DNA of 35,815 nt from Candidatus Nitrosocosmicus sp. GTDB taxonomy: Archaea > Thermoproteota > Nitrososphaeria > Nitrososphaerales > Nitrososphaeraceae. Of the stretch, positions 25,851-32,295 are shown piece after piece. The first letter of the stretch is position 1. Every line of letters begins with the position of its first letter. The DNA is taken from NCBI GenBank assembly GCA_013114705.1, contig QCWC01000001.1, positions 1 through 35,815 of the forward strand, given 5' to 3'. Made by a program: the position numbers and the translations under genes. The notes under the pieces were generated by a model. It was not told the origin of the DNA, did not search any database, and saw only the letters and a program-made list of their open reading frames with translations.

Positions 25851-25880
25851 TTAGATAGAAGAGGGAGAAAATTTAAATTG

Positions 25881-26696
25881 ATGTCTACAGCCAGCGATTC
25901 AAACATCGAGTATATTGACTGGAATCACGCTTTTGATACGCTTCAAAAAGCATATCAATTAGGAATTTTTGTTTTGATTATAGGTCCAAAGGGTACTGGT
26001 AAAACAACTCTTGTAAGAAAATTTGCCTCCCAGATGGGCAAGGAATTATCTTCGGTAAACTTTAGTTTAAGAACCAGAGAATCACACCTAATAGGTACCA
26101 ATACTTTAGATAATGGTCAAATTAATTTCGTCAATGGAGTACTAGTTCATTCGATGAACCAAGGTGATATATTGTATCTGGATGAATTAAATGCCGCTGA
26201 ACCTGATGTGTTGTTAAGACTTGATGAAGCGCTTGACGACAGAAGGCAAATTGTTTTAAAAGAATTTCACGGCCAGACGATAAAAGCAAAGGACAACTGG
26301 TTTGTAATAGGAACGATAAACCCATTATCTCATGTAGGAACAAAGGAGCTCCCCCCACAAATTTTGAGTCGTTTCCCAATAAGAATAATGCTAGATTATC
26401 CACCTGAAGAGACTGAATTGGAGATTATCAGAAAGCACGTAAATATAAACAACATTACTCAAGAAGAAAACATTCGAAGTGCTATCAAATTAGCAAGTAA
26501 TTTGCGAAAAGCTGCTTCATTGGAAGAAATTTTTTATAGTCCGAGTTTGAGGGAGACAATTGCATATTCTAAACTAGTAGTAAGCGGTACAAATGCAAAA
26601 GATGCAGCCGAAATAGTTTTTGCAAACGTCTATCATCAATGGGGCGAAATCGAATATAGAAAAGTCATGGATATTATCGCTTCTATTTTCTTATGA
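25881..26696 (+). CDS. MoxR/NorQ/CbbQ-type AAA+ ATPase
   Basis: 271 aa from ATG 25881. Walker A is GPKGTGKT (about 35-42), Walker B LYLDELNAAE (about 98-107), sensor 1 is FVIGTINP, and an Arg finger region follows in PQILSRFPIR. NorQ/CbbQ-type ATPases work with a VWA protein to insert metals into, or reactivate, enzymes such as nitric oxide reductase, nitrite reductase or Rubisco. The VWA partner follows 18 bases downstream, so the two form an operon. No obvious client enzyme is encoded in the window. Confidence 0.9.
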   Translation: MSTASDSNIEYIDWNHAFDTLQKAYQLGIFVLIIGPKGTGKTTLVRKFASQMGKELSSVNFSLRTRESHLIGTNTLDNGQINFVNGVLVHSMNQGDILYLDELNAAEPDVLLRLDEALDDRRQIVLKEFHGQTIKAKDNWFVIGTINPLSHVGTKELPPQILSRFPIRIMLDYPPEETELEIIRKHVNINNITQEENIRSAIKLASNLRKAASLEEIFYSPSLRETIAYSKLVVSGTNAKDAAEIVFANVYHQWGEIEYRKVMDIIASIFL

Positions 26697-26714
26697 TGTT
26701 AATTAGGGGAAAAA

Positions 26715-28508
26715 ATGTCCATCTTTTGGAATAAGAAGAAAACCTCCGGAGAGGAAGAAGAGAAAGAACAATCCAAGATAGGCGCTCCCTTATCAAACAC
26801 TTACAACACTAGCAATACTACCAAGACAAACTCCAAATCAGAGATAAAAACAAAACACGAGTCAATTCTAAGGTTTGATGATATGGATCTGGAAAATATC
26901 CATATCAGAAATGATGTGTTACTAGAAATTGCTACTTTTCTTTCTCGCAGGTGGTCGGATAGTTCCGATTCTACGATTCATATTTCCAGAGAAGGAAAAA
27001 CTTCAACTAATTTAGAAAAAAAAAGAATAACCCTTCCGGGTTTAGATTACTTTTATGGCAATATTTTTCAAAAATATAGACAATGGCGAACGTTACTATG
27101 GTATGAATCTATAAGACTAAAATATTCATTTAAAATTTTTGATACTGATGTAGTATTTGGATTCATTTTTAATATCCTTGAGACAAAACGAGTAGAAATT
27201 TTGGGGCTAGAAGAATGGAAAGGTATGATTAAAGAAATTATTTTTTATGAGGGTCTTTCATGGCATAACAAGCCACTTTTAAACTCTCTTCATGGTAGAA
27301 ATAAAGTTCTAGAAGCATTCTCACAGTACTTTTTGACTGGTTATATAAAGGGAGAATTATTTGGCGGCGAAAACGAAAGAGTGGTAAAGGCTTCAGAGTA
27401 TGCCCACGAAATTATCAAAGATTATGTAAAGAAATTCAATCTCAAAAACAAAACACATGACCCAACCGAAGATCAAAAATGGTTGGAAAAAGAAACCAGA
27501 CAAATTATCAAGATTTTGCAAGTTGATTCATTGATGTCGGCTCCTCCGATACCCATGCTTATGCCCAAAAGTAAAGTAGGATTATCCATGAAACAAGAAG
27601 AGATATTATCTCAAATAGAAAAATTGGTAAAAATAAAGACAAAGGAAATCGAAATTGAGAAATTAAAAAAAGAGATCGTTCAGGGAGACGACATTAATGA
27701 GGAATTTAGGATAATCGTAAAAGAGAGTCAAAAAAATGATAACAAGGGATTTGAGTCGACTGAAAATTTGTCCATTGCAATTCCAGATAATACCGGTATT
27801 AACGAAAATGCAATATACGACTTTAATTTGATAAACAAAGTCAAGACTGCTCTCAAAGAATGGAAGAGCGGTTGGAGAGAAAGATATGACTTTACTGGAG
27901 AAGAGATAGAAGTTGAAAACTACATTGAGAGACAACCCAAAGTCTTTATCAAAGACAAAAAAATCGCCATAAATGTCAAGATTGCGATATTGCTGGACCT
28001 TTCTAGTAGTATCGAAGATAACGAAATTGAATATAAGAAGGCCACTGTAGCGTTATGCGAAGGACTGGATTATTTGGGAATAAAATTTTCAATCTACGCT
28101 TTTAACACAGAATCTCGCTCTGTTAAATGCTGGATAATAAAACCCCCCTCTGTTAGATGGGGAGCGTTATATGCCAGAAGACTGATGCAAGTAAGGCCAT
28201 TAGGTGGAACACCATTAGGTGAGGTTTACAAAATACTAAATCCCAGTATCAATGCTTTTAAGCCAGACATATTTGTAACATTAACCGATGGTGAGCCATC
28301 TGACATGGATGCGGTGAGATCCATCGTTTTATCCTATAAGCGCAGTGGTATTCAAATGATTGCAATAGGTTTGGGCGCGGACCTAGGGGATGCAATAGGC
28401 ATTGGCCATAATCTAAAGTATCTTAACTACCAGAGAACACTAACACTGTCTAAAAAAAGATTACAAGATTTACCCAAAAAGGTTCTGGGTCTGCTAACCG
28501 TAGATTAG
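26715..28508 (+). CDS. NorD/CoxE-like VWA-domain protein
   Basis: 597 aa. A Thr/Ser/Lys-rich start is followed by a helical domain (about 60-400, containing a Lys/Glu-rich coiled-coil stretch near 290-340) and a C-terminal von Willebrand A domain (about 420-597). The MIDAS metal site is intact: DLSSS near residue 427, a Thr in GGTPLGE, and TDGEPSDMD. This is the expected partner of the MoxR/NorQ ATPase immediately upstream. A GGGG-rich ribosome-binding site (TTAGGGG) precedes ATG 26715. Client enzyme unknown; copper nitrite reductase or ammonia monooxygenase are possible in this group. Confidence 0.88.
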   Translation: MSIFWNKKKTSGEEEEKEQSKIGAPLSNTYNTSNTTKTNSKSEIKTKHESILRFDDMDLENIHIRNDVLLEIATFLSRRWSDSSDSTIHISREGKTSTNLEKKRITLPGLDYFYGNIFQKYRQWRTLLWYESIRLKYSFKIFDTDVVFGFIFNILETKRVEILGLEEWKGMIKEIIFYEGLSWHNKPLLNSLHGRNKVLEAFSQYFLTGYIKGELFGGENERVVKASEYAHEIIKDYVKKFNLKNKTHDPTEDQKWLEKETRQIIKILQVDSLMSAPPIPMLMPKSKVGLSMKQEEILSQIEKLVKIKTKEIEIEKLKKEIVQGDDINEEFRIIVKESQKNDNKGFESTENLSIAIPDNTGINENAIYDFNLINKVKTALKEWKSGWRERYDFTGEEIEVENYIERQPKVFIKDKKIAINVKIAILLDLSSSIEDNEIEYKKATVALCEGLDYLGIKFSIYAFNTESRSVKCWIIKPPSVRWGALYARRLMQVRPLGGTPLGEVYKILNPSINAFKPDIFVTLTDGEPSDMDAVRSIVLSYKRSGIQMIAIGLGADLGDAIGIGHNLKYLNYQRTLTLSKKRLQDLPKKVLGLLTVD

Positions 28509-30254: not shown

Positions 30255-31913
30255 TTATACACTTTTAATTTCGTATCGATCCAATATAGTTTTTCTGCCT
30301 TTGATCCAATCTTCTCGTATATTCAATTTCTGCGAGTTAGCCAGTAATGTTTGTTCCAGATGAGAATCTAGCTTAAATTTAGTCTCCGAAATCCTCTTGT
30401 CTATGTCCTCAGAACCAAAAATTGCATTACCCATGACGAAAATCCTACAGCCTACTTCAAAACAGCTTTCTATGGTCGATTGATCTATTCCTCCATCAGC
30501 CTCAATATATCCTGTGTATCCATTTTCCCTCAACTTTGGTATCAAGTTTTTCATCTTGGGTAACACTTCTGGTATAAACTTTTGGCCAGCAAATCCAGGA
30601 TTTACAGACATTATGATCAAGACATCCAGATCATCCAAGTGTGAATAAATCCACCCAGGCAAATCTGTAGCGGGGTTTATTGCCAATCCAGGACTTATGC
30701 CATTGGAAATTAACTTTGCACTCATTTTCTCAAATTCCTTCTCACCGTTACAAACTTCGCTATGTGTTGTAATTATATCACATCCTGCATCAATGAAGGA
30801 ATCCAAATAAGAATCAGGACTTTGAATCATCAAGTGCGCGTCAAATGGCAATTTGGTGATCCCTCTTAGATTCTTTATAACATCAAAAGAAAAAGTGGTA
30901 TTTGGCACGAATTTTCCATCCATCACATCCAGGTGAATCATATCTGCTCCGAATTTTTCTGCAAGTTCAATTTTATTAATTAGGCTCTTTTCTTCGATTC
31001 CGGTAGACCCTGCGATAATGGAAGGAGATATCAAGTATTCACCCTCAAGCTCCTCAATGAGCAATGGCAAATGTTTTTTTGAAGGTGCCTTACCATGCCA
31101 TTGAGGATTGTTGGCCATATGTTTTATTCCGTTTCCTTTTATGGTATTTGCTATGATTATTTTGGGTTTGTTTGGAGGCCTATTTAGCAGTTCGGGCACC
31201 AATTGTTCAATTTTGTGACCATTAACCTCTACGACATCCCAATTAAAGGAACTCCACTTTTCTTTAATCGGATCTATAGGCATAATATCCTCTGTAAAGC
31301 CATCTTGTTGGATCTTGTTTCTATCCAATATTGCTACCAAGTTATCAAGTTTAAATTTTGAAGCTGCCATAGAAGCCTCCCAGACCTGTCCCTCGTTTGT
31401 CTCCCCGTCTCCCAGCAAGCAGTATACAGTATTGTCTTGTTTATCAAGTCTATTTGCCAAACATAAACCAATTGAGACTGACAGTCCAATTCCTTCTGAC
31501 CCACCAGAGTATTCAATACCTGGAACGCTATGATGTTTCTGGTATTCGCTGTACCTTACGGGGTGTCCTTGAAGTCGGGAGTTTAGTTTCCTTAGAGTCT
31601 TCATTTCCTCCTTTGGAAAAGAGCCAGCCAATGACAAAGTGGCGTAATATCCGGGCGCCGAATGCGCCTTTGAATTAATAAAATAATCTCGTTGACGTAA
31701 TCTCGGATTGGAAATATCTACGTTCATTATTTGGAAATAAAGTGATCCCATTATCTCAGCAGCGGAAAAGGATGCTCCCGGATGACCTGATCCGGCTTCA
31801 GTTATACCAGTTAAAGCTAGTATACGGATTTCTCGAATCTTTTCTTTTAATTTTAAATATCTATTTATAAAGTACAATCTCTTATCGTCCTCCCTAAAAT
31901 GAACACTTTCCAC
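30255..31913 (-). CDS. Fusion: transketolase N-terminal subunit + ribulose-phosphate 3-epimerase
   Basis: 552 aa with two enzymes in one frame. Residues 1-290 are the thiamine-diphosphate-binding half of transketolase (SGHPGASFSAAEIMG, then GDGETNEGQVWEA with D169 and N173), ending normally in HGKAPSKKHLPLLIEELE. From residue 294 a complete ribulose-5-phosphate 3-epimerase follows: ISPSIIAG, metal ligands H327/D329 (IHLDVMDG), H360 (DAHLMIQ) and D473 (EADGGID), and VNPGFAGQKF. Residues 510-552 are a charged tail I do not recognise. One polypeptide would thus make xylulose-5-P and use it with the separate C-subunit. The start is GTG 31913. No stop or frame change occurs at the junction. Confidence 0.93.
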   Translation of the reverse strand: MESVHFREDDKRLYFINRYLKLKEKIREIRILALTGITEAGSGHPGASFSAAEIMGSLYFQIMNVDISNPRLRQRDYFINSKAHSAPGYYATLSLAGSFPKEEMKTLRKLNSRLQGHPVRYSEYQKHHSVPGIEYSGGSEGIGLSVSIGLCLANRLDKQDNTVYCLLGDGETNEGQVWEASMAASKFKLDNLVAILDRNKIQQDGFTEDIMPIDPIKEKWSSFNWDVVEVNGHKIEQLVPELLNRPPNKPKIIIANTIKGNGIKHMANNPQWHGKAPSKKHLPLLIEELEGEYLISPSIIAGSTGIEEKSLINKIELAEKFGADMIHLDVMDGKFVPNTTFSFDVIKNLRGITKLPFDAHLMIQSPDSYLDSFIDAGCDIITTHSEVCNGEKEFEKMSAKLISNGISPGLAINPATDLPGWIYSHLDDLDVLIIMSVNPGFAGQKFIPEVLPKMKNLIPKLRENGYTGYIEADGGIDQSTIESCFEVGCRIFVMGNAIFGSEDIDKRISETKFKLDSHLEQTLLANSQKLNIREDWIKGRKTILDRYEIKSV

Positions 31914-32295
31914 TCCAACTTACCCATATCCCAATACACTGATCCTTCAAAAGACAAATAGATAAAAAGGTAACTTCCAAAGTTATTATAAATTAACCGA
32001 AATAATCGGGTTTCTTCCAAAACCAGTTTCCATATCCTGATTCTCTCTAATCAATGGTCCATCTACAGTATACCAGCCCGTAGTGATTAGTCCATTATTT
32101 TATTAACATGCCAAGATTTACAAAACAAAAAGAATTTTATCTGGGCACTGAATTCTAGTCAAGTCAATTAAACTAAAATTCTTTCGAGTTAAAAAGAAAA
32201 ACAGAGACGGCGTTTTAAAATCTACTATAATTTAATATTTGTACAGAGGTAAAGCAGGCTGCATGAATTACTTTAAAAAATTGCAGGCGGACCAT
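31914..32295. other. Intergenic region with a possible gene remnant
   Basis: No intact gene. On the minus strand, 31986-32098 reads as 35 residues ending in a stop (GLITTGWYTVDGPLIRENQD and on to a GFGRNP motif), closed upstream by two consecutive TAA codons. It has a protein-like composition and may be the 3' remnant of a lost gene. The rest is AT-rich and featureless. Confidence 0.3.

Follow-up and report, generated by a model that had tools for sequence, protein, structure and literature searches.

A fusion of the transketolase (Tkt) N-terminus to ribulose-5-phosphate 3-epimerase (Rpe) was reported by Padalko, Nair and Sousa in 2024 as cluster 341.1, which is present in 73 of 98 Thaumarchaeota assemblies (PMC11237513). 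The main text of that report gives the cluster a sentence or two and describes neither a junction, tail, operon or phylogeny nor unfused collinear relatives or a reversed fusion. The closest characterized relative of the transketolase portion is the split-gene transketolase of Carboxydothermus hydrogenoformans (6yaj, 6yak; PMC7661550), in which the PP domain and the Pyr and C domains are carried by two chains. The subunits of the split enzyme are inactive alone and active as an alpha2beta2 assembly (PMC7661550). The Carboxydothermus N-subunit carries no epimerase, and the ∼70-residue PP-Pyr linker of full-length transketolases is absent. For the epimerase portion, the free-standing RPEs 2fli, 1rpx, and 1tqj serve as the reference.

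The protein described here is encoded in a window of 35,815 nucleotides from Candidatus Nitrosocosmicus sp., the term window denoting the whole stretch of DNA that was analyzed. It has the same architecture as cluster 341.1, a transketolase N-terminal domain (TK-N) followed by RPE in one chain, and it lies within a clade of fused Nitrososphaeraceae and Nitrosopumilaceae sequences; the published cluster was compared by its description. The window protein is a member of the documented Tkt-N/Rpe fusion and is not new. An earlier note on this DNA, made from the sequence alone, knew of no described enzyme with this domain order; that statement is overturned by PMC11237513, prior documentation being what the note itself had named as counting against it. 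What is new here are the staged relatives, the single origin, the constant junction, the tail found only with the fusion, an independent reversed fusion, and gene-content evidence on the direction of flux.

The fused gene is a single open frame on the minus strand, with the plus strand over the same positions rich in stops. The uninterrupted 552-residue frame of the earlier note is indeed present, and the strand, which had been left unstated, is supplied in Table 1. The partner subunit and transaldolase that had been placed in the same operon were both found on the same strand, and the transaldolase gene overlaps the stop of the transketolase C-subunit (TKC) gene by 4 bases. The closest solved relatives of the transaldolase are 1vpx and 3s0c, both deposited as (probable) transaldolases.

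Table 1. Features of the fused transketolase/epimerase operon in the window.
Feature	Positions	Strand	Basis or remark
Fused TK-N/RPE gene	30255..31913	minus	552 codons + stop from GTG 31913, or 540 from TTG 31877
Transketolase N-subunit (PP / thiamine-diphosphate domain), residues 19-290	31044..31859	minus	PF00456 24-276; 6yak chain
Junction, residues 291-293	31035..31043	minus	AlphaFold2 secondary structure; constant H273-to-P297 spacing
Ribulose-5-phosphate 3-epimerase domain, residues 294-505	30399..31034	minus	PF00834 295-499; alignments to 2fli, 1rpx, 1tqj
C-terminal tail, residues 511-552	30258..30383	minus	AlphaFold2 helices, invariant L523 and W536
Transketolase C-subunit (TKC; Pyr + C domains), 330 aa	29181..30173	minus	PF02779, PF02780; 6yaj chain E 2e-90
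Transaldolase, short (MipB/TalC) type, 221 aa	28519..29184	minus	PF00923, TIGR00875
TATA-like stretch TACCTTTTTATCTATTTG, upstream of fused gene	31955..31972	minus	conserved in four Nitrosocosmicus-type genomes

The codon at 31877 is TTG in the window and ATG or GTG in close relatives, and the longest frame of one relative begins at the matching codon. Because of these relatives, and because the AlphaFold2 model gives residues 1-10 a mean pLDDT of 29, the true start may be TTG 31877 instead of GTG 31913. The TATA-like stretch TACCTTTTTATCTATTTG is a possible promoter. The leader between 31878 and 31950 is strongly conserved in three Nitrosocosmicus genomes; within it, a short out-of-frame ORF (MGKLEWKVFILGRTIRDCTL in the window) overlaps the possible TTG start. 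For a leader RNA element, no Rfam match was obtained apart from a tRNA located elsewhere, at 2315-2406, which occupies 92 bases for a 71-position model and possibly contains an intron. On the other side of the operon, a gene pair of AAA+ ATPase and VWA-domain-like type (25878-28508) runs convergently toward the transaldolase gene and is kept at the same place in Nitrosocosmicus and some Nitrososphaeraceae.

Pfam analysis of the fused protein revealed Transketolase_N (PF00456, residues 24-276, E 2.3e-40) and Ribul_P_3_epim (PF00834, residues 295-499, E 1.9e-53). The best solved relative of the TK-N half is a 6yak chain (residues 19-290, E 2.6e-67); the Carboxydothermus split transketolase is also the best sequence match to both window subunits and the best fold match to TK-N. 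As in that enzyme, the PP and Pyr + C domains lie on separate chains encoded by neighboring genes, and the thiamine-diphosphate motif GDG...N and the substrate histidines are in place. The difference is that the RPE and tail are attached at the end where the Carboxydothermus subunit stops. The cofactor and substrate residues H44, H84, H117, G168-D169-G170, N199, and H273 are present and invariant in 55 fused proteins.

The epimerase half shares its fold (TM-score 0.87-0.92, normalized by the known structure), ligands, and motifs with 2fli, 1rpx, and 1tqj, and differs from them in being placed behind TK-N and in carrying a helical tail of ∼40 residues. All four metal ligands listed in the earlier note (H327, D329, H360, and D473) sit on the TIM barrel, align with the HxD, H, and DGG motifs of solved RPEs, and are invariant across the 55 fused proteins. 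The RPE half scores 197.7 bits, below the TIGR01163 equivalog cut-off of 212.6, which guides annotation and does not define an RPE, and passes the cut-off of the RPE subfamily PRK05581 (197.1 versus 165 bits). Based on the Pfam domains and catalytic residues, the earlier description of a complete transketolase half and a complete epimerase in one frame stands, and the fused chain is likely bifunctional. Because the fused protein is the sole match to either half in its own genome, as it is in most fused genomes, the TK-N and RPE activities probably have no other source.

A class-wide sample of 300 genomes was examined for the fusion. Two families carry it: f1, the family of the window, which includes Nitrosocosmicus and Nitrososphaera, and f2, a Nitrosopumilaceae-type family that includes Nitrosotalea and that we infer to be the Nitrosopumilaceae. 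A near full-length single match was found in 43 of 45 f1 genomes and 159 of 171 f2 genomes (totals counted by hand). The rest comprise four f2 genomes with one open frame containing an inserted stretch, four genomes without a match, and partial matches that are cut by contig ends. No unfused form was found among these 216 genomes; fission in some of them was considered and rejected, the weak or partial matches that were checked being either contig-end cuts or a single frame with an insertion. The survey of Nitrososphaeria proposed in the earlier note thus finds the fusion in nearly all sampled genomes of both families. In these two large families almost every ammonia-oxidizing archaeon carries it, and the window copy is ordinary. 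In some Nitrosopumilaceae-type genomes a second TK-N gene, ∼40-44% identical and lacking RPE, is present as well (L199 2987-4731 on the minus strand; L237, L238, L241, and L231); in L199 it is followed by a TKC gene.

The single chain was modeled with AlphaFold2 using an alignment of 55 fused sequences (pLDDT 83.8, pTM 0.87). In the model, the last TK-N helix (279-290) is followed by three residues and then by the first RPE strand (294-299). The stretch between the final histidine motif of TK-N (H273) and the first proline of RPE (P297) spans 24 residues in all 100 fused proteins that were measured; the one remaining protein of the 101, judged by eye, shares this spacing, with a conservative change. 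The 42-residue C-terminal tail recognized in the earlier note, residues 511-552, is predicted to be helical and ordered, with helices at 504-529, 533-539, and 541-546. After the DGG motif, 75-88 residues remain in fused proteins versus 44-65 in unfused relatives, L523 and W536 of the tail are invariant in the 55 fused proteins, and a conserved ordered helical tail is confined to fused proteins. A known domain in the tail was considered and rejected, as Pfam gives no match. Comparison with solved structures by Foldseek matched the split transketolase chain and RPEs and no structure with both domains.

Two family-specific insertions were observed in the alignment. Members of f1 have ∼8 extra residues (RYSEYQKHH) directly after the substrate histidine motif GHP; these correspond to window residues ∼120-128 (31530-31556), have low pLDDT, and are absent in f2 and in unfused relatives. 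Most f2 proteins have an extra stretch of up to ∼20 residues after MPLD (A1 columns 216-235), which is missing in f1 and is longer in G037, G159, G181, and G233.

The unfused relatives suggest how the fusion came about. Families f3, f4, f5, and f12 have the genes in the order TKN-RPE-TKC-TAL, TKN and RPE being separate neighbors, and the same four-gene order is found outside the class in two of three genomes of f77. More distant families (f7, f16, f17, and f20) have TKN-TKC without RPE in between. The TKN stop and RPE start overlap in several unfused relatives, for example, as ATGA in f5 and in the f3 genome G067. Because four quick trees each place the fused genes in a single clade (SH-aLRT support of 100 for all four genes, 98 for TKC and TAL, 99 for TKN, and 96 for RPE), the phylogeny indicates that the fusion arose once, and we propose that this took place in the ancestor shared by Nitrososphaeraceae and Nitrosopumilaceae. 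There, the stop of one gene and the overlapping start of its neighbor would have been bridged; a by-eye comparison of junction DNA from f5 and f3 with the window suggests that shifting the frame by a net one position is enough to connect the two genes with no added linker. The ammonia oxidation gene amoA is present in unfused f3, presumably Nitrosocaldaceae, and f5, and is absent in f4 and f12, and therefore the fusion is not simply tied to ammonia oxidation. In small f7 genomes, a single-chain transketolase lies beside transaldolase in place of the split form (L091 4744-6708 and L092 5738-7213), and in L091 an RPE gene is beside them as well.

A more distant example was found in a phylum sample of 398 genomes, in which odd frames were read. 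Two genomes, G566 and G571, encode a protein of 537-538 residues in the reversed order, with RPE at 8-196 and TK-N at 268-523 (L185 4596-6212 and L186 4684-6297, both on the minus strand). The two proteins are 83% identical, and only these two of the 91 genomes of their family, which belongs to another class of the phylum, carry the gene. As in the window, the same two domains share a chain and TKC and transaldolase genes come next; the differences are that RPE is first and is separated from TK-N by ∼70 residues, whereas the window protein has TK-N first and a 3-residue junction. Because of the opposite order and the different class, the sequences indicate that the reversed fusion is independent of that in ammonia-oxidizing archaea. 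No mention of it was found in the main text of PMC11237513 or in other literature searched.

The gene content of the examined genomes bears on the direction in which the two activities operate. In the ribose-making direction both transketolase reactions release xylulose-5-phosphate, so RPE acts after transketolase. RpiA was found in 18 of 18 genomes tested; in the same 18 genomes HxlB gave nothing above cut-off and 6-phosphogluconate dehydrogenase (6PGD) was absent, save for fragments in one. The exception is an f1 genome with pieces of a 6PGD-like gene (G109:C1:480917-481360 and 524891-525037), one of which has an in-frame TAG. Since RpiA is present, no HxlB exceeds the cut-off, and the oxidative pathway, judged by 6PGD, is incomplete, flux is probably from sugar phosphates to ribose. 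In addition, soil ammonia-oxidizing archaea encode and express FBP aldolase/phosphatase, which has been taken as evidence for gluconeogenesis (PMC11131427). The proposal in the earlier note that RPE supplies xylulose-5-phosphate as donor to transketolase is therefore probably backwards, and would hold during pentose breakdown.

Taken together, we consider it quite probable that the window protein is a bifunctional chain, a split transketolase N-subunit joined once to an active RPE, that pairs with TKC and works toward ribose. The fused chain would pair with the product of the adjacent TKC gene in an archaeal split (alpha2beta2) transketolase, which would move a C2 unit from fructose-6-phosphate or sedoheptulose-7-phosphate onto glyceraldehyde-3-phosphate and release xylulose-5-phosphate. 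The attached epimerase would convert this to ribulose-5-phosphate, and RpiA would yield ribose-5-phosphate. Because each transketolase turnover would give one xylulose-5-phosphate, a fixed 1:1 ratio of the two enzymes would suit this flux. Activities, direction, and assembly are all predictions from gene content and sequence.

Why the fusion persists can be read in several ways. It could well be, though we would put the chance somewhat under even, that the fusion is a near-neutral by-product of overlapping genes in a compact operon, became fixed a single time, is hard to lose, and ensures co-expression in equal amounts with no catalytic gain. The genes of unfused relatives are adjacent, and in several the stop and start overlap by 4 bases or a similar length, so that one net reading-frame shift suffices for fusion, while fission requires a new start and a new stop. 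Weighing against this reading, no fission was found among the 216 sampled genomes, the tail occurs only with the fusion and keeps L523 and W536 invariant, and a second, reversed fusion exists. Another reading is true channeling, in which xylulose-5-phosphate would pass from the transketolase site to the RPE site without bulk mixing. Transketolase and RPE catalyze successive steps, and the constant junction length, the predicted fixed domain arrangement, and the independent reversed fusion all agree with channeling; however, both domains resemble normal free-standing enzymes, and the opposite order with ∼70 interdomain residues in the other lineage speaks against one special geometry. We consider channeling rather improbable. 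RPEs often form hexamers, and the RPE domain could instead be mainly a structural organizer that draws tetramers of transketolase together into larger assemblies, the tail serving as a contact. The ordered fusion-specific tail and the solved RPE relatives deposited with 6 or 12 chains are in keeping with such a role, for which the AlphaFold2 prediction covers a single chain; yet all catalytic residues are kept, which argues that the domain is not only structural, and we find this reading equally doubtful. Finally, an assembly or frameshift error that joined two genes, for which one could cite the unfused relatives with both genes side by side, was rejected, as was chance, because the same frame is open in ∼200 genomes, single-contig as well as draft, of both families and from many studies.

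Returning to the bifunctional, ribose-directed chain, we suggest, as a tentative and on balance unlikely extension, that two fusions of opposite order in TKC-transaldolase operons might have arisen as coupling helps organisms that can make ribose solely by running transketolase in reverse. In that case the fusion would be a ribose-synthesis module with a kinetic or assembly benefit, the tail included. The two natural designs, in the window order and in the reversed order, make a benefit of coupling transketolase to the epimerase testable. The fusion represents a lineage-wide joining of two consecutive sugar-phosphate enzymes in globally abundant autotrophs, and its pre-fusion stages are still present in relatives.
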